Positions 13,111 to 19,832 of a stretch of 20,420 bases of DNA are shown here, piece by piece. The stretch is taken from the IMG/VR virus record IMGVR_UViG_3300005580_000036, positions 1-20,420 of that record. One strand, 5' to 3'. The stretch comes from a virus. Under the pieces are notes generated by a model, which worked only from the letters and a program-made list of their open reading frames with translations, had not been told where the DNA came from and ran no database searches. Positions within the stretch are counted from its first letter, which is position 1, and the number at the start of each line of letters is the position of its first letter. The position numbers were made by a program, and so were the translations under genes.

Positions 13111-13317
13111 ATGAACAATAATGAAAAAATTAAAATTTTACAGCAAAGAATTGATTTAATAAAAATATCAATATCTCATCTTAAATATACTGAGCCAGAA
13201 GACTTGGAGTATTTTGAAACCTTTACAGAAGCCAAAAAAGAAGAAATACGTGATTTTATTAGGGATCAAAATTTAAAGATGTCTGCCCTAGAATCAGAAT
13301 TAAGTCTTTACAAGTGA
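13111..13317 (+). CDS. Small coiled-coil protein 1
   Basis: This is a 68-residue, highly charged, helix-forming protein. The ATG at 13111 was chosen because a strong SD (AAGGAAGGA, 13097-13105) lies just upstream; the frame could extend to a TTG at 13090, but that overlaps the previous gene and would precede the SD. Two helical stretches (KIKILQQRIDLIKISISHLK and DFIRDQNLKMSALESELSLY) have heptad-like hydrophobic spacing. The sequence aligns loosely with the next small protein (IKISISHL against IEYSIYNL; SALESELSLY against AALTTELALL), so they may be paralogues. The function is unknown. Its position between tail fibres and the early module could mean a virion or assembly role. Confidence 0.6.
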   Translation: MNNNEKIKILQQRIDLIKISISHLKYTEPEDLEYFETFTEAKKEEIRDFIRDQNLKMSALESELSLYK

Positions 13318-13336
13318 TTTGTCTTTATGCTATAAT
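13307..13336 (+). promoter_or_regulatory. Near-consensus extended -10 promoter
   Basis: TTTACA (13307-13312), an 18-base spacer ending in TGC, and a perfect TATAAT (13331-13336) form a strong vegetative-type promoter. The -35 overlaps the end of coiled-coil gene 1. The transcript would start around 13342-13344, placing the strong SD of the next gene at the very 5' end of the mRNA. Confidence 0.7.
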
Positions 13337-13353
13337 ATGGAAGGAGGAATAAA

Positions 13354-13572
13354 ATGTCCGCAATTTTAACAAACGAAGAAAAGGCTGCAATTGTAACTCA
13401 GCATATGAAAAATATTGAGTATTCAATTTACAACCTAGAAGTTTCAGTTATTGAAGAAGAGGCTGTACAGTCTCCAGATGCTGAAAAGATTTCTGCTCTT
13501 AACTCTGATATTACAGAGCTAAATGCAAAGAAGGCTGCTCTTACAACAGAGCTAGCATTACTTACAGCATAG
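13354..13572 (+). CDS. Small coiled-coil protein 2
   Basis: This 72-residue protein has a strong SD (AAGGAGG, 13341-13347) before its ATG and its own promoter immediately upstream. It is predicted helical: KAAIVTQHMKNIEYSIYNLE, an acidic linker (EEEAVQSPDAEK), then a Leu/Ala-rich helix (SDITELNAKKAALTTELALL). It resembles coiled-coil protein 1 in length and helix-linker-helix layout. There is no membrane segment or catalytic motif. The strong promoter and SD suggest abundant synthesis. The function is unknown. A small oligomeric virion or scaffold-like protein is possible but not shown. Confidence 0.6.
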   Translation: MSAILTNEEKAAIVTQHMKNIEYSIYNLEVSVIEEEAVQSPDAEKISALNSDITELNAKKAALTTELALLTA

Positions 13573-14108: not shown

Positions 14109-14530
14109 TGGCAAATGTATTCCAAGAAGGTGAACCATTAAATGTTACATCTCTAAATGAAATGTATACCGAGCTAGTTAAGCTTAGAGGAAATTTTGGA
14201 GCAATGTCAACGGCAGAAGATATTGTTGATTCTTTGCTAGGGCCTAGCGTTCCAGTTATTGCTGGTAATAGAGAGTCTGTAGATTTAAAGGCAAATGATG
14301 TTGTAACTATAAATATATCTGATCAGCTTAGTAGAAAGTATACTGGCAAGACAGAGAATCCGTGGATTATTGTAGGTCTAGGCGGAAAGCTAAATGCAAA
14401 AGAAGTTGTTTCCGCAACAGTTCATGGTACAGGATTACAAAAAACCATATACGTTACATCTAATGTAAAGAAAGATAACTTTGGAATATACTGGATTGCA
14501 GTATATCTAAGGCCAATTACCAACAACTAG
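14108..14530 (+). CDS. Hypothetical protein at the end of the structural operon
   Basis: This 140-residue protein starts at an ATG overlapping the previous stop (TAATG). The N-terminus is polar and perhaps helical (LNVTSLNEMYTELVKLRGNF). The C-terminal two thirds look beta-rich (VDLKANDVVTINISDQ, PWIIVGLGGKLN, KTIYVTSNVKKDNFGIYWI, AVYLRP). I recognise no family. It is the last gene before the regulatory interval with a terminator-like hairpin, so it probably ends the late operon. Its composition and place suggest a minor virion or fibre-tip protein, which is a guess from context. Confidence 0.5.
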   Translation: MANVFQEGEPLNVTSLNEMYTELVKLRGNFGAMSTAEDIVDSLLGPSVPVIAGNRESVDLKANDVVTINISDQLSRKYTGKTENPWIIVGLGGKLNAKEVVSATVHGTGLQKTIYVTSNVKKDNFGIYWIAVYLRPITNN

Positions 14531-14532
14531 TA

Positions 14533-14560
14533 TTGACAATTCAAGCTAATATGTTACAAT
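14533..14560 (+). promoter_or_regulatory. Near-consensus promoter of the replication module
   Basis: A perfect -35 TTGACA (14533-14538) is followed after 16 bases by TACAAT (14555-14560), with TGT directly before it as an extended -10. The expected start is near 14567. It lies in the only clear gap between the structural and replication gene blocks. Confidence 0.75.
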
Positions 14561-14571
14561 TGTTGTAACAT
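14551..14571. promoter_or_regulatory. Perfect dyad (candidate operator) over the -10 box
   Basis: ATGTTACAA, a 3-base centre TTG, and TTGTAACAT form a perfect inverted repeat with 9-bp arms. The left arm contains most of the -10 hexamer and the right arm covers the expected start site. A dimeric DNA-binding protein sitting here would block RNA polymerase. The ligand is not known. The HTH protein encoded at 15548 is one candidate. Confidence 0.6.
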
Positions 14572-14572
14572 C

Positions 14573-14597
14573 AAAGTCACGTACCCGTGACTTTTTT
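14573..14597 (+). terminator. Rho-independent terminator-like hairpin
   Basis: AAAGTCACG and CGTGACTTT pair perfectly around a TACC tetraloop, with six consecutive T at 14592-14597. It would end read-through from the upstream tail operon. Because it lies just downstream of the promoter at 14533-14560 and before the gene at 14614, it could also act as an attenuator for that promoter. Confidence 0.75.
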
Positions 14598-14613
14598 CGT
14601 ATTAAGGTAACTA

Positions 14614-15417
14614 ATGTCAAACGATTTAAAATGGATGCTCTCATCCGACCAGCAATTCCCATATCAAGATGATAAAATGATTGCTCTATGGTTTAAAGTT
14701 ATGAAATGGTTTAAGCCAGATGTCGTAGACTATTTGGGAGACACAGACGATCAAGCCTGCTATAGTAAATATACAGAAGGAAGATCAGCAGAATTTATGC
14801 AGCTTCATAAAGATGATAGTCGTGATTTAATTGTTCCAATGATGCGACATGAAGCAAAGGGTGCTAGAGATTTTTATGCAAAGACAAGAGACATGTTACC
14901 AGAGGCTCAATTATTTTCTGCTCTAGGAAACCACGACGTTAGAATTTTTAATTATGTTGATGCTAAGCTGCCAGACTATTTAAATGAAGTTACGCCAGAA
15001 TCATTATGGTCTTTAGATTCCCTGGGTTATGATTATATTTATTACAATGATCTACCAAAGAAACGCTTTGGAGATATACACGTTCACCATGGTCTTTCAA
15101 TTTCCGCAACAGGATCTGTAAGAAAAGATATGGAAGACATGCAAGTTTCTTTAATTAGAGGACACTCACATAGAATTGCTTCACATATGGTTACCTATGA
15201 ACTTAGAAACAACGGAGAGGGAGAGACTCTGCGTGGATATGAGATTGGTCACATGTGCGACGAGAAGGGCCCAGGAATGAAGTACACACAGCACCACGAT
15301 TGGCAGAAAGGCTTTGCCATTGCACATATTGAAAATGGAGAATACCCACACGTTCAAATGATTCACGTATCTCCAAACTATACTTGTGTCGTTGATGGAA
15401 AGATGTTCAGCTTATAA
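14614..15417 (+). CDS. Calcineurin-like metallophosphoesterase
   Basis: This 267-residue soluble protein has the ordered motifs of the calcineurin-like phosphoesterase superfamily: SDQQFPY (Asp12), LGDTDD (Asp43, Asp46), GNHD (Asn106, His107), HHG (158-160) and GHSHR (His184, His186). These bind two divalent metals that hydrolyse phosphoester bonds. The first motif is normally DxH; here it is Asp-Gln-Gln, so one metal ligand is substituted by Gln14, a variation that may tune activity. An AAGG SD (14604-14607) precedes the ATG. It is the first gene of the replication block, downstream of the promoter/dyad/hairpin interval, and its stop overlaps the next start. The substrate is unknown; nucleic acid ends or nucleotides are plausible. 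Confidence 0.88.
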   Translation: MSNDLKWMLSSDQQFPYQDDKMIALWFKVMKWFKPDVVDYLGDTDDQACYSKYTEGRSAEFMQLHKDDSRDLIVPMMRHEAKGARDFYAKTRDMLPEAQLFSALGNHDVRIFNYVDAKLPDYLNEVTPESLWSLDSLGYDYIYYNDLPKKRFGDIHVHHGLSISATGSVRKDMEDMQVSLIRGHSHRIASHMVTYELRNNGEGETLRGYEIGHMCDEKGPGMKYTQHHDWQKGFAIAHIENGEYPHVQMIHVSPNYTCVVDGKMFSL

Positions 15418-15602
15418 TGTGGTGTCAAAAATGTAACGGTAGAGTATTTGTCGATAGAGTATTTTCTCAAAAACTACACGTAGAGTTGTTCTGCGTGATG
15501 TGCGGCAAGCGATGGATGATTAATAAAGAGACGAGTCCACTAGGTAAATGGCTAGACAAAAAAGATCAAAAGCACGCAAAAAGTTTCTTTATTTCTTCTT
15601 AA
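15417..15602 (+). CDS. Small zinc-ribbon protein
   Basis: This 61-residue protein starts at an ATG overlapping the preceding stop. Two CxxC knuckles, WCQKC (Cys3, Cys6) and FCVMC (Cys26, Cys29), are spaced like a zinc ribbon, with KRWMINKETSPLGKW after the second. The C-terminal part is basic (DKKDQKHAKSF). Such small ribbons in phage early regions often bind nucleic acid or another protein. Which one cannot be read from the sequence. The 3' end overlaps the next gene by 55 bases in another frame. Confidence 0.65.
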   Translation: MWCQKCNGRVFVDRVFSQKLHVELFCVMCGKRWMINKETSPLGKWLDKKDQKHAKSFFISS

Positions 15603-16030
15603 ACGGGAAGATCCATAAGGTATTAAAATCATCAAGAGCAAAAGATGAATTGATAGCCTGGTCGTATGAAGATAAAAAAAGAATGTTATACTCGTACACA
15701 TTAGTAGAAAAGAATATGGAAAATGCTTATTCAATTAAAGATGTATCAGCACTTTTAAATAAGCATAAGGTAACAATTGAAGATTATATTTTAGAGGGAA
15801 AGATTAAATCCCCTAAAAGAATATATCCAATTGGAAACCCAGATAGTTCATGGTCTAAGTTTATGTTTAGCCATAAGGATATATTAGATCTACATGAGTT
15901 TATCTTAGAGGTTGGCCATTCATCAAAGGTTCCGTCAAGGGCTGAGATACTGGCACTTCTCAAACACAACTTAATATTGTATACTAAGACCGAAGAAGGA
16001 AAGTTTGTCCCTGTATGGAAGGCGGAATAA
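15548..16030 (+). CDS. MerR/excisionase-like helix-turn-helix DNA-binding protein
   Basis: This 160-residue protein starts at an ATG with an AGG SD (15542-15544), inside the end of the zinc-ribbon gene. A basic N-terminus (MARQKRSKARKKF) is followed at about 60-115 by a winged HTH pattern of the MerR/excisionase type: AYSIKDVSALLNKHKVTIEDY (the HTH), EGKIKSPKRIYPIG (wing), and FSHKDILDLHEFI (following helix). A C-terminal region (about 118-160) has no recognised motif. It lacks an effector-binding domain typical of full MerR proteins. It is a candidate transcription regulator, possibly acting on the dyad at 14551-14571, or a replication accessory protein. This target is inferred. Confidence 0.62.
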   Translation: MARQKRSKARKKFLYFFLNGKIHKVLKSSRAKDELIAWSYEDKKRMLYSYTLVEKNMENAYSIKDVSALLNKHKVTIEDYILEGKIKSPKRIYPIGNPDSSWSKFMFSHKDILDLHEFILEVGHSSKVPSRAEILALLKHNLILYTKTEEGKFVPVWKAE

Positions 16031-16239: not shown

Positions 16240-16546
16240 AAAAGAACCTTATGTTTTAATTGGCCTATACGAATCTCTATATTTATCTAAGTATGGTAAA
16301 AAGCCAAAGCTAAATAAGTTTAGAGAAAAGTGGGCTATGCAGGATGTAATAGATAGCGTAGGCTTTGAACATGCAAAAGATCTGCTTTCCTACTATTTTA
16401 AAACAAGTAAGTCTGGGCACCCATTAAACTTTTTCTTTTACAACTTTGACAAGATAGATTATCTTAAAGTTGCAATGGATAAGGATGTAGAAAATCGTCG
16501 TATGCTACTAAAGGCAACGAAGAAGTTAGTTGAAGGCGGTGAGTAA
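16229..16546 (+). CDS. Small protein upstream of the helicase; possible helicase-associated factor
   Basis: This 105-residue protein begins at a GTG, the best start available in the frame, overlapping the previous gene by 11 bases. It is rich in aromatic and basic residues: YVLIGLYESLYLSKYGKKPK, LNKFREKWAMQDVIDSVGFE, then LLSYYFKTSKSGHPLNFFFY and a C-terminal helix. No catalytic motif is seen. Its stop overlaps the helicase start (TAATG), so the two are probably made in step. By position it could be a loader or partner of the DnaB-like helicase, but there is no sequence proof. Confidence 0.5.
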   Translation: MASEKEPYVLIGLYESLYLSKYGKKPKLNKFREKWAMQDVIDSVGFEHAKDLLSYYFKTSKSGHPLNFFFYNFDKIDYLKVAMDKDVENRRMLLKATKKLVEGGE

Positions 16547-17790
16547 TGAATACAGAAGCAGAAGTCATTTCCGCAGTATGTAAAAATAAAGACATCAGTA
16601 CACTACTTGCCGATAACGTAGATGAAATATTTACCTCACATAGAGACATTTGGGAATCATTAAAGCTATATTATTATAAGTTTAAGGCAGTGCCAGAGGC
16701 TGGTATCCTAGTAGAAAAGTTTAAAGACTTTGAGCCAGTAGCAACAAAAGCAGAGACTGGATATTACTTAGACAAGTTAAAGAATGAATTCTTAACTAAT
16801 AAACTTAAGAGTATTATTATTCAGTCTGGCTCAGCCCTTAAAGAAGATTCTGCTGGCAGAGTAATTGCAGATATGCAGTCAAAGTTATCTCAGCTTTCAA
16901 AGTTTACAAATAATGTAAGAGATTTAGATGTAACAGATTTAGAATCTGCAACAGCACACTTTACTTCAGTTAAAGAAAGATCTGCTGCAATGGGCGGTAG
17001 CCCAGGAATTCTTACTGGATTTGATGCTATTGATAAGGCGTATCCAACTGGAATGGCACCAGGTCATTTGATTGTTGCTATTGGTTGGCCAGGACGTGGT
17101 AAGACATGGTTTACTTCCTACCTAGCATGCAAGGCGTGGGAGCAAGGCTTTAAGCCAATGATTGTTTCCCTTGAAATGTCACCAGAAGATATGCGTAACC
17201 GTATCTATACAATGATGGGATCTGGATTATTTCGTGCAAGCGACTTTGCAAAGGGAGATGTAAACATAGATGACCTGCGTACCTGGGGTTCTAAAAAGTT
17301 TGAAAACAAAAATGGATTCGTATTGGTTTCAAGCGAGGGAATGTCAGATGTTAGTGCAAATACGGTACAGGCAAAGATAGACCAACACAAACCAGATCTA
17401 GTTATTCTTGACTACCACCAGCTTTTTTCTGATACAAAGCGAAGCTCTGGTGCTACAGAAAGAAATATGAATATTTCACGTGAGTTTAAAATGCTTGCAA
17501 TGACAAACGGTATTCCAGTAATTGATATTACGGCGGCAACTATGGATGACATAACCGATCAAGATGCCCCTCCAATGCTATCTCAGGTTGCGTGGTCCAA
17601 AGCTATTGAGTATGATGCCGATATGGCAATAGCAATTCATAAGTATACGAATACAAATATGATTGAGGTTGTTAGCAGAAAGAATAGACACGGACAAGAC
17701 TTTAGCGTGTTCTTAGATTGGGATATCAATAGAGGTATCATCAAAGAGATTTATGAAAATCCTTTCCAAAATGACGCACAAAAAAATTAG
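16546..17790 (+). CDS. DnaB-like replicative DNA helicase
   Basis: This is a 414-residue RecA-fold helicase. The N-terminal about 120 residues are helical, as in the DnaB collar domain. The motor domain (about 150-405) shows Walker A GWPGRGKT (180-187), VSLEMSPEDM (207-216, the DnaB H1a-type motif), Walker B VILDYHQL (286-293), ITAATMDD (328-335) and SRKNRHGQDF (377-386), the arginine-finger region. It would unwind the phage replication fork as a hexamer, with the primase encoded downstream. It is shorter than typical bacterial DnaB of about 450-470 residues, mainly at the N-terminus, which is usual for phage versions. It is coupled to the upstream small gene. Confidence 0.92.
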   Translation: MNTEAEVISAVCKNKDISTLLADNVDEIFTSHRDIWESLKLYYYKFKAVPEAGILVEKFKDFEPVATKAETGYYLDKLKNEFLTNKLKSIIIQSGSALKEDSAGRVIADMQSKLSQLSKFTNNVRDLDVTDLESATAHFTSVKERSAAMGGSPGILTGFDAIDKAYPTGMAPGHLIVAIGWPGRGKTWFTSYLACKAWEQGFKPMIVSLEMSPEDMRNRIYTMMGSGLFRASDFAKGDVNIDDLRTWGSKKFENKNGFVLVSSEGMSDVSANTVQAKIDQHKPDLVILDYHQLFSDTKRSSGATERNMNISREFKMLAMTNGIPVIDITAATMDDITDQDAPPMLSQVAWSKAIEYDADMAIAIHKYTNTNMIEVVSRKNRHGQDFSVFLDWDINRGIIKEIYENPFQNDAQKN

Positions 17791-18073
17791 TAGATTTCAA
17801 ATAAATGTAGAGTTTTTAGATGATTCAGAAATTATTAAAATTAAACATCAATACGAAAGCATGCTTACTCATCAAATGAGAGACAAGGGCTACGCAAGAG
17901 TACTTGACATAGACCCAGCGTTTGCAGTAGAATTCACAGGAGAAACATGGAAGTTCTTAATGACCTTGCATGGAGTTTATGTAGGAAAGAAGAAGGCATG
18001 GCTATCAGAGGGAATCTCTCAGGGAAAGCTAATCTCACGCAATATGCGCCCAACCATATCAAATCCATACTAA
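17753..18073 (+). CDS. Small protein overlapping helicase and primase genes; function unknown
   Basis: This 106-residue protein starts inside the helicase gene (38-base overlap; AAAGAGA SD upstream of the ATG) and ends inside the primase frame. It is basic, with motifs such as VEFLDDSEIIKIKHQYESML, RDKGYARVLDIDPAF and VEFTGETWKFLMTLHGVYVG, then KKKAWLSEGISQGKLIS. No zinc or nucleotide site is seen. The length and codon regularity in a frame distinct from both neighbours support a real gene rather than a shadow. The position between helicase and primase suggests a replisome accessory protein, but this is inference. Confidence 0.6.
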   Translation: MKILSKMTHKKISRFQINVEFLDDSEIIKIKHQYESMLTHQMRDKGYARVLDIDPAFAVEFTGETWKFLMTLHGVYVGKKKAWLSEGISQGKLISRNMRPTISNPY

Positions 18074-18996
18074 AATCACTTGGCCTTGACATTGTTGGAG
18101 AAACGTCTAATGACTTTTTGTGCTATTGTCCTTTTCATTCCAATAGACACACGTCTAGTTTTAGTGTAAGTAGGGACAAGGGTGCCTTTATTTGTTTTAA
18201 TCCTTCATGCGGAGAGGCTGGTAACCTGATTGAATTAGTAAAAAGAGTATTGCACAAGAATGATTTTGAAGCTATGAGATTTATTGCCACAAAAGAAACT
18301 GAGTCATTAAATAATTTTGATGAACTAATATCGGAGATACTAGAAGACAAGCCAGACTTTATAGAGTTTTCAGAAGAAACGCTTAAGGATCTATATAATG
18401 GTTTAGTTAAAAGCAAAGACGCTCAAGACTATTTAAAGTCAAGAGGAATTAATCTAACAGAGATGACATACTTTTCTTTAGGATATTCACCTAAGCAAAA
18501 CATGGTAACTGTTCCAGTTCATAGCCCAGATGGAACTCCAATAGGAATTGTCGGTAGATCAATTGAAGGTAAGTCATTTAAAAATAGTACAAATCTTCCT
18601 AAGAGCAAAACAATATTTAATGTGCACCGTGCAAAAAAGATTGGCGACCATGTAATTGTTGTTGAGTCCAGCTTTGATGCTATACGTGTACATGAAGCTG
18701 GATTCCCAAATGTAGTTGCTACGCTTGGTGGTTTTATATCAAACGAACAACAACATTTATTAAATAGATATTTTAATAGAATAACTATAATGACAGATGC
18801 AGATGAAGCAGGCAGGGCTCTAGGTATAAGCATTGCTAATAAATTAAAGAACAAAGACATCTTGTGGGCTTCTTATGAATATGGTAAGATATATCCACAT
18901 GCAGCAAAAGATGCAGGCGATATGTCACCAGATGAGATAAAGGCTTGTATTAAAAATGCAGTTTCCGACATCGAATATCGATCTTGGAACCCATGA
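17998..18996 (+). CDS. DnaG-like primase (zinc-finger and Toprim domains)
   Basis: This is a 332-residue protein from the ATG at 17998, which has GGAAAGA eight bases upstream; the frame extends to an ATG at 17947, adding residues that look non-native. An N-terminal CHC2-type zinc site is visible: Cys44 and His47 (CPFH) with Cys66 and Cys71 (CFNPSC). The Toprim catalytic fold carries Glu223 (VESSFDAIR) and Asp267/Asp269 (TDADEAG), which bind Mg2+ for primer synthesis. It has no obvious C-terminal helicase-binding domain of bacterial DnaG, so it may contact helicase differently. It would lay RNA primers for the DnaE-type polymerase encoded downstream. Confidence 0.9.
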   Translation: MAIRGNLSGKANLTQYAPNHIKSILKSLGLDIVGETSNDFLCYCPFHSNRHTSSFSVSRDKGAFICFNPSCGEAGNLIELVKRVLHKNDFEAMRFIATKETESLNNFDELISEILEDKPDFIEFSEETLKDLYNGLVKSKDAQDYLKSRGINLTEMTYFSLGYSPKQNMVTVPVHSPDGTPIGIVGRSIEGKSFKNSTNLPKSKTIFNVHRAKKIGDHVIVVESSFDAIRVHEAGFPNVVATLGGFISNEQQHLLNRYFNRITIMTDADEAGRALGISIANKLKNKDILWASYEYGKIYPHAAKDAGDMSPDEIKACIKNAVSDIEYRSWNP

Positions 18997-19051: not shown

Positions 19052-19726
19052 ATGGGTATCGTAAAGGGATTAAAAGACCTAAACAAAGTAATGGACAAGC
19101 CACAGTCATCAGGTGGCGACACAACAAAGGCACGTTGGGTAAAGCTAGAAGATACAGAAAGCGTAAAGATTCGTTTTCTACAAGAGCTTGATCCAGATTC
19201 ACCAAGCTACAACGAAAAGCACGGGCTTGGCTTTATTGCAGTAGAGCACACAAATCCAAAAGACTATCGCCGTAAGGCTTTATGTTCAATGGAAGATCAA
19301 GGAAAGTGCTATGGCTGCGAACAACACCGAAAAGATTATAAGGCAGGGTGGAAAGGTCGTTCACGACTTTACATTAACGTCCTTGTTGACGACGGTAAAG
19401 AGGATCCATATGTTGGAATCCTTTCACAGGGTTCAAGTGGAAAAACAGTAACACCAACTTTAATTGAATACGCTGGAGAAATGGGTAGTATTACAAATCT
19501 CATGTGGCGCATTAAACGTTCTGGAACAAAGACGGATACAAGCTATACAATTATTCCTTTAGGTAAGGATGAAACAGATTTTGATTCATCATCACTAGAG
19601 CTATACAAGCTTGAAGAAACTGCTATTCGTGACATGCCATACACAGAACAAGAAGCTTTCTTTAATGGTGAAGGCGGACAAGAACAATCTGATACTGCTA
19701 CAAACAGCAGCTTAGACTGGTTATAA
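19052..19726 (+). CDS. gp32-like single-stranded DNA-binding protein
   Basis: This 224-residue protein has an AAGAGGA SD before its ATG and a promoter of its own. A zinc site is apparent: His66, Cys78, Cys86 and Cys89, closely matching the H-x12-C-x9-C-x2-C spacing known from T4 gp32 (here H-x11-C-x7-C-x2-C). The surrounding OB-fold-like segments include SVKIRFLQELDP, RLYINVLVDD and LMWRIKRSG. The acidic, flexible C-terminus (FNGEGGQEQSDTATNSSLDWL) is like the tails by which ssDNA-binding proteins contact other replisome members. It would coat single-stranded DNA at the fork. T4-type family membership is inferred from motif spacing, not from overall alignment. Confidence 0.8.
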   Translation: MGIVKGLKDLNKVMDKPQSSGGDTTKARWVKLEDTESVKIRFLQELDPDSPSYNEKHGLGFIAVEHTNPKDYRRKALCSMEDQGKCYGCEQHRKDYKAGWKGRSRLYINVLVDDGKEDPYVGILSQGSSGKTVTPTLIEYAGEMGSITNLMWRIKRSGTKTDTSYTIIPLGKDETDFDSSSLELYKLEETAIRDMPYTEQEAFFNGEGGQEQSDTATNSSLDWL

Positions 19727-19733
19727 TTTGGCA

Positions 19734-19755
19734 GGGAGCAGAGCAATCTGCTCCC
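19734..19755 (+). terminator. Strong hairpin between ssDNA-binding gene and tRNA
   Basis: GGGAGCAGA and TCTGCTCCC pair perfectly around a GCAA loop (GNRA type). A further TGGCA/TGCCA pairing outside it includes the first bases of the tRNA. Only TTAT follows, so termination may be weak; it could also protect or process the transcript. Confidence 0.6.
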
Positions 19756-19759
19756 TTAT

Positions 19760-19832
19760 GCCAGAGTAGCCCAGCGGTAGAGGCGGTAGACTTAAAATCT
19801 ATACAGCGTGGGTTCGAATCCCACCTTCGGCA
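19760..19832 (+). tRNA. tRNA-Leu(UAA), short variable loop
   Basis: A 73-base cloverleaf can be drawn. The acceptor stem is GCCAGAG with CTTCGGC, with one A-C mismatch and one G-T pair, then A73. The D arm has the G18-G19 pair. The anticodon arm is GTAGA / loop CTTAAAA / TCTAT, giving anticodon TAA at 34-36. The variable loop is only five bases (ACAGC), and the T arm is GTGGG-TTCGAAT-CCCAC. CCA is not encoded (CACA follows). Anticodon UAA reads the Leu codon UUA, frequent in this AT-rich genome. Leu tRNAs of bacteria normally have a long variable arm, so charging by LeuRS is not certain. Confidence 0.85.

Follow-up and report, generated by a model that had tools for sequence, protein, structure and literature searches.

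A conserved promoter-proximal leader hairpin before the replication genes of actinophage-like viruses

What is the role of a strong promoter that runs straight into a hairpin shaped like a terminator? This question is raised by a short intergenic element that separates the tail module from the DNA-replication module in an uncultivated virus resembling actinophages. The window, that is, the whole stretch of DNA analysed here, is the entire virus record of 20,420 bases, itself a fragment, and its relatives are contigs of up to ~120 kb. The features of the locus are listed in Table 1. The upstream tail-side gene, which had no Pfam or PHROG match and belongs to no family, is separated from TTGACA by 2 bases after its stop at 14530, and the metallophosphoesterase (MPE) gene on the other side starts with an ATG at 14614. 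No PDB sequence match was found for either the MPE or the HTH protein. The genes run in the same order (minor tail, then small genes, MPE, HTH protein and helicase) in three Rhodococcus phages (Trina, NiceHouse and Weasels2) as well as in the Streptomyces Stanwilliamsviridae. A search for MPE relatives in genome contigs to find the host returned none, while the named relatives suggest an actinobacterial host.

Table 1. Coordinates of the features at the boundary between tail and replication genes (positions in the window)
Feature	Position	Strand	Remarks
Upstream gene, 140 aa	14108..14530	+	closes the structural (tail) module
-35 element TTGACA	14533..14538	+	kept in 151/158 distinct leaders
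Dyad ATGTTACAA-TTG-TTGTAACAT	14551..14571	.	over the -10 and start
Extended -10 TGT-TACAAT	14552..14560	+	spacer 16 in 151/158; TGN in 151/158
TAACAT, -10-like hexamer at ~+1	14566..14571	+	in the right dyad arm
Leader stem-loop AAAGTCACG-TACC-CGTGACTTT	14573..14594	+	-10.7 kcal/mol
T6 run	14592..14597	+	gives the stem-loop its terminator-like form
Shine-Dalgarno-like AAGG	14604..14607	+	sequence inspection
Metallophosphoesterase (MPE)	14614..15417	+	phrog_221, E 6.6e-54; first gene of the predicted replication-side operon
HTH protein	15548..16030	+	phrog_9440; weak HTH_17 match
DnaB-like helicase	16546..17790	+	PF03796, E 8.6e-27
DNA primase	17947..18996	+	
Single-strand DNA-binding protein (SSB)	19052..19726	+	phrog_9721, E 5.4e-49

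The original prediction of a TTGACA-N16-TACAAT promoter proved exact to the base (14533-14560), and the -10 is in addition of the extended type, with TGT directly 5′ of the hexamer (14555-14560) and a spacer of 16 bases. Three sites in the window carry 11 of the 12 consensus letters, this promoter included, and two of them have a TG before the -10. The hexamer TACAAT itself is kept in 123 of the 158 leaders with a recognisable promoter. From its position, the RNA is predicted to start at ~14567. A second strong promoter of the window, TTTACA-N18-TATAAT with a TG (13307-13354), lies 5′ of a small gene at 13354; with a gap of 17 bases to the ATG and no hairpin, it is a useful internal control.

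A stem-loop had been described as beginning about 6 bases after this start, and its stem indeed begins at 14573. The two arms (14573-14581 and 14586-14594) form 9 pairs, 4 of them GC, around the loop TACC; the first three Ts of the T-run can pair with AAA, and TTT follows the stem. In the window, a GC-containing stem is thus followed by a U run, as in an intrinsic terminator, and this is the best terminator-like site there. Perfect inverted repeats (arms of at least 9 bp, loop of 3-8) occur at three places in the 20.4-kb window, two of which are the leader stem and the dyad over the -10, while shuffled windows contained a mean of 0.79 such repeats and, in 100 of them, two repeats never lay within 60 bases of each other. 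Both of these dyads fold as tandem hairpins in read-through RNA (z -5.2). When the window was searched with the Rfam covariance models at the gathering score, only tRNA matched, and the element matched no Rfam family. Another stem-loop (GGGAGCAG..CTGCTCCC, 19733-19756) was observed between the SSB stop (19726) and a tRNA-Leu(TAA) at 19760; the SSB gene carries a TATAAT at its end, a few bases 5′ of this stem-loop, which gives the same order of -10 and then hairpin, here before the tRNA.

Leaders of relatives were collected by an MPE protein search, a DNA scan for the hairpin with T6, an HTH protein search and from named phages. This gave 162 distinct leaders, 158 of them with a recognisable promoter, and a subset of 107 leaders that were reached without using the hairpin. 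A hairpin follows the promoter in 157 of the 158 distinct leaders, and the distance from the -10 to the hairpin is 11-14 bases in 134 leaders. An exact scan of IMG/VR for the hairpin with T6, which took no account of the gene, returned at least 120 stretches, and among the matches listed, the hairpin and T6 always lay directly 5′ of an MPE gene and were themselves preceded by the promoter. In the large relative contigs tested (~100 kb; 60-116 kb for the hairpin with T6), promoter, dyad and hairpin each occur as a single copy. The leaders fold with a median z of -3.3, and for 143 of 153 leaders no more than 3 of 60 shuffles were equally stable. The AU-rich hairpins (L249, L250 and L275) and that of L294 were no more stable than shuffles; the stem-loop may be decaying at the family edges, and the edge of the hairpin family is uncertain because the AU-rich stems are mostly no better than shuffles. 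The relatives support what had been proposed, a conserved module at the boundary of structural and replication genes in which a strong promoter runs straight into a terminator-shaped hairpin, and a lack of conservation of dyad and hairpin, which would have spoken against the proposal, was not seen. Given that more than 100 related phages have retained the arrangement, once in each genome, despite changed stem letters, the element is a real control element, probably of a familiar kind. No description of it was found in the open-access literature searched; it is conserved and, as far as we searched, undescribed, although the kind is already known.

All pairs in the 15 distinct stems are standard, a percentage inflated by the fact that the hairpin finder picked the stems. 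Among these stems, two-sided (compensatory) changes are found at 5 of 7 pairs, and the stem covariation score exceeded all 500 shuffles as well as all slides. In the GTCACG class, the non-Watson-Crick cells comprised 12 G/T, 1 A/C and 9 others, with related sequences counted repeatedly. The preponderance of G/T over A/C mismatches indicates that the hairpin is selected as plus-strand RNA, and it disfavours a DNA-level operator as the hairpin's reason. On the comparison of leaders, then, the hairpin is under selection as plus-strand RNA and is coupled to the promoter, and the covariation means that it is the leader hairpin that is conserved, rather than its letters or its T-run.

The T-run is present in 89 of the 107 leaders (83%) and absent in 18, all of which keep the hairpin, and it changes 7 times on the MPE tree. 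A stem with its U-run is therefore not conserved as a unit across the homologous leaders, among which several hairpin types occur. The T-less types include GGCCATGAA/TTCATGGCC, GGTCATGC and AU-rich stems, and the GGCCATGAA/TTCATGGCC stem is more stable than the usual stem. In most lineages T6 persists even after the stem has changed (L071, L074 and L077). In Weasels2 and Grayson, similar hairpins lie 5′ of the HTH gene, some with an intact T6 and some without it, and classical terminators are used by these phages elsewhere. As the T-run is missing in 18 of 107 hairpin-bearing leaders, termination is not a function common to all of them, and these leaders make it more likely that the hairpin is more than a terminator alone. 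In a related contig (L315, 19188-19216, minus strand), we also observed an intergenic 11-bp stem-loop with a T-run (ATCCACAGGG..), located near a repeated TAGATAGATA-like sequence.

The explanation that we favour, and to which we give an even chance of being right, is a replication-operon promoter with a promoter-coupled 5′-leader hairpin that is terminator-shaped in most lineages. The 81 bases would represent the promoter and 5′ leader of a replication-side operon predicted to comprise the genes for MPE, HTH protein, DnaB, primase and SSB and probably expressed early. The near-consensus promoter would start the RNA, the first ~30 bases of which may fold into the stem-loop 5′ of the MPE ribosome site. 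In most lineages, the six Us would cause a partial stop both of RNA from the local promoter and of read-through from the tail genes, so that the hairpin might serve as a leaky attenuator and a module insulator. Since lineages without the U-run keep the stem-loop in place, the function that all lineages have in common more likely concerns the mRNA 5′ end, where the stem-loop would act in 5′-end protection or as a structured leader, than termination alone. Stem-loops that stabilise mRNA from the 5′ end need no T-run. Which of attenuation, insulation and 5′-end protection would dominate is a matter that the sequence cannot settle. In Trina, NiceHouse, Circinus and Weasels2, there is no promoter 5′ of the MPE gene, and no such hairpin there. 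Phage Dorin, in which a hairpin lies 5′ of the MPE gene without a clear promoter, counts against this explanation.

At most of the other promoters in these phages the leader is short and unstructured, which indicates that the stem is no general need. A general rule of leader hairpins at the promoters of these phages is accordingly mostly false; the other leader-hairpin promoters are that of an Hsp20-like gene and one more. The Hsp20-like gene (L302, 18730-18816; L316, near 213) has an extended -10 and an RNA that would open with a hairpin holding TGCCNAANGGG, a pattern seen in 5 of 18 related contigs, and this hairpin is possibly the structured leader of a small heat-shock-type gene.

The hairpin with T6 might instead be a plain terminator of the tail operon, which would block late transcription into the replication genes and overlap the promoter owing to the short gap. 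The textbook shape of this best site in the window is in its favour, as are the median of 3 bases between tail stop and TTGACA, which leaves no room upstream, and the two tandem hairpins of read-through RNA, in which the dyad would be the second hairpin. However, the 18 leaders that lack the T-run have no space for another terminator before the promoter, the distance of the hairpin from the -10 varies less (sd 1.8) than its distance from the upstream stop (sd 3.9), and no terminator is found at this boundary in Trina, NiceHouse or Circinus. Moreover, the order of promoter and then terminator would stop the operon's own RNA too, and we regard a plain terminator as unlikely.

An operator at the dyad is a different possibility, in which a dimeric repressor or activator, possibly the HTH protein, whose gene lies 1 kb downstream, would bind over the -10 and start. 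The perfect palindrome with 9-bp arms on which it is based was confirmed, the arms (14551-14559 and 14563-14571) being 100% complementary with 3 bases between them and the left arm coinciding with the extended -10. A palindrome overlapping the promoter is what a dimeric operator would provide, and its position over the -10 suits a repressor. The right arm is as conserved as the -10 in the commonest class (99.6%, with 70% for the N13 spacer), and left T/C and right A/G positions co-vary (91 T-A, 14 C-G, 2 T-G and 2 C-A), with agreement in 4 of 4 supported independent arm pairs (p 0.125). The half-site spacing, in contrast, is not constant: it is 5, 6 or 7 (rarely 8) in relatives and changes 17 times on the tree, a poor fit to a classical dimer operator. 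Looking for the dyad elsewhere, we found it in relatives, where it is present in 74 of 107 leaders and absent in 33, but not as a second copy, either in the window (21 bases, up to 3 mismatches; 0.00 expected) or in the large contigs. Its mismatches lean to G/T over A/C (14 to 3, few of them independent). The HTH gene accompanies 98 dyad leaders and 43 non-dyad leaders, and the neighbouring HTH protein was rejected as the dyad binder because it does not co-occur with the dyad. With a varying spacing, a single copy per genome and an HTH gene independent of the dyad, the repressor control suggested originally is unsupported, and we consider an operator of either sign quite unlikely to be the main point. 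The left arm is missing from RNA that starts at the local promoter, and a dyad RNA hairpin would therefore be possible only in read-through transcripts. In phage Circinus (L216, 2800-2880), a dyad AACTACT..AGTAGTT was seen to flank an extended -10 (TGCTATACT) 5′ of the holin gene.

In most leaders, the hexamer TAACAT cannot be told apart from the dyad arm. TANNNT occurs at that offset in 66 of 104 dyad leaders, and in 23 of 45 non-dyad leaders against 13.9 in shuffles. This enrichment even without the dyad suggests that the conservation of the dyad may partly reflect a start-region or pause signal, not an operator, and TAACAT is possibly a sigma-dependent pause signal. Such a pause site for loading would belong to regulated attenuation, in which a phage or host factor would help polymerase through the terminator, in the way that Q acts at late promoters and AlpA in Pseudomonas. 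A strong promoter, a -10-like hexamer at ~+1 and a terminator just 3′ correspond to the Q and AlpA layout (PMC6606751, PMC7969949), but the stretch between -35 and -10 is the least conserved (70% identity versus 99% for the flanking motifs), the T-run is repeatedly lost and no antiterminator candidate was identified, and regulated attenuation appears to us just as unlikely as the operator. We hold it decidedly improbable that the element is a promoter-embedded antitermination checkpoint of actinophages, in which polymerase would make a sigma-dependent pause at the +1 TAACAT and a phage or host factor would act before the terminator ~30 bases on; if true, the whole replication operon would be gated, with the dyad as the loading site. 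A trans-acting small RNA of ~30 nucleotides ending at the T-run would be the expected product of a promoter firing into a terminator, and the good conservation of the leader (AAGTCACG..CGTGACTTTTTT) also speaks for it, but the variable loop, the turnover of stem letters, the loss of the T-run in 18 of 107 leaders, the missing Rfam match and the position of the element, in cis and 5′ of the MPE gene in every match listed, make it very unlikely.

The promoter with its leader hairpin would be a single-copy site, defined by its sequence, at which the expression of replication genes is controlled in many environmental relatives of actinophages, a large group represented here by metagenomes only. 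It offers a clean test case of whether promoter-proximal, terminator-shaped leaders work by ending transcription or by giving structure to the 5′ end of the mRNA.

Like the Q-dependent PR′/tR′ (PMC6606751) and the AlpA-dependent alpB/tB (PMC7969949), the element combines a strong sigma-70-type promoter with an intrinsic terminator shape before the first gene, and it may share with the Q type a -10-like hexamer near +1 (PMC6606751). The binding element of Q and AlpA is located between -35 and -10 (PMC6606751, PMC7969949), whereas here this region contains no conserved element (identity 70% in N13, 99% in the promoter motifs), no more than ~30 bases separate the terminator from the predicted start, replication genes are driven, the T-run is not universal and no antiterminator was identified. 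In HK022, the putL RNA is likewise a structured RNA directly 3′ of a phage promoter (PL); put RNA is ~70 nt long, has two stem-loops and suppresses termination (PMC9378689), while our element has a single stem of 9 bp, which in most members is accompanied by a T-run. The SAS/ESAS of cluster K mycobacteriophages are also inverted repeats with a variable spacer 5′ of start codons in actinophages, and each genome contains 11-19 copies of SAS, which share a 13-bp motif (PMC3203893); a dispersed start-associated repeat of this type was rejected for our element, which is single-copy. The 5′-terminal mRNA-stabilising stem-loops of ompA, papA and aprE would resemble it in lying a few bases from the predicted 5′ end and 5′ of the ribosome site (reviewed in PMC3997798, its references 92-95 and 109), with the difference that most members here carry a T-run and that stabilisation would be a predicted role. 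In Comrade, NootNoot, Trina, Grayson and Weasels2, a hairpin lies just after the -10, 5′ of the gene that opens the corresponding region; these hairpin sequences are unrelated to ours, and in Trina, Grayson, Weasels2 and NootNoot the element is 5′ of the HTH gene, not of MPE, but the leaders of the Stanwilliamsviridae and Rhodococcus phages share with it the order of -10, hairpin, MPE or HTH gene, and then DnaB.
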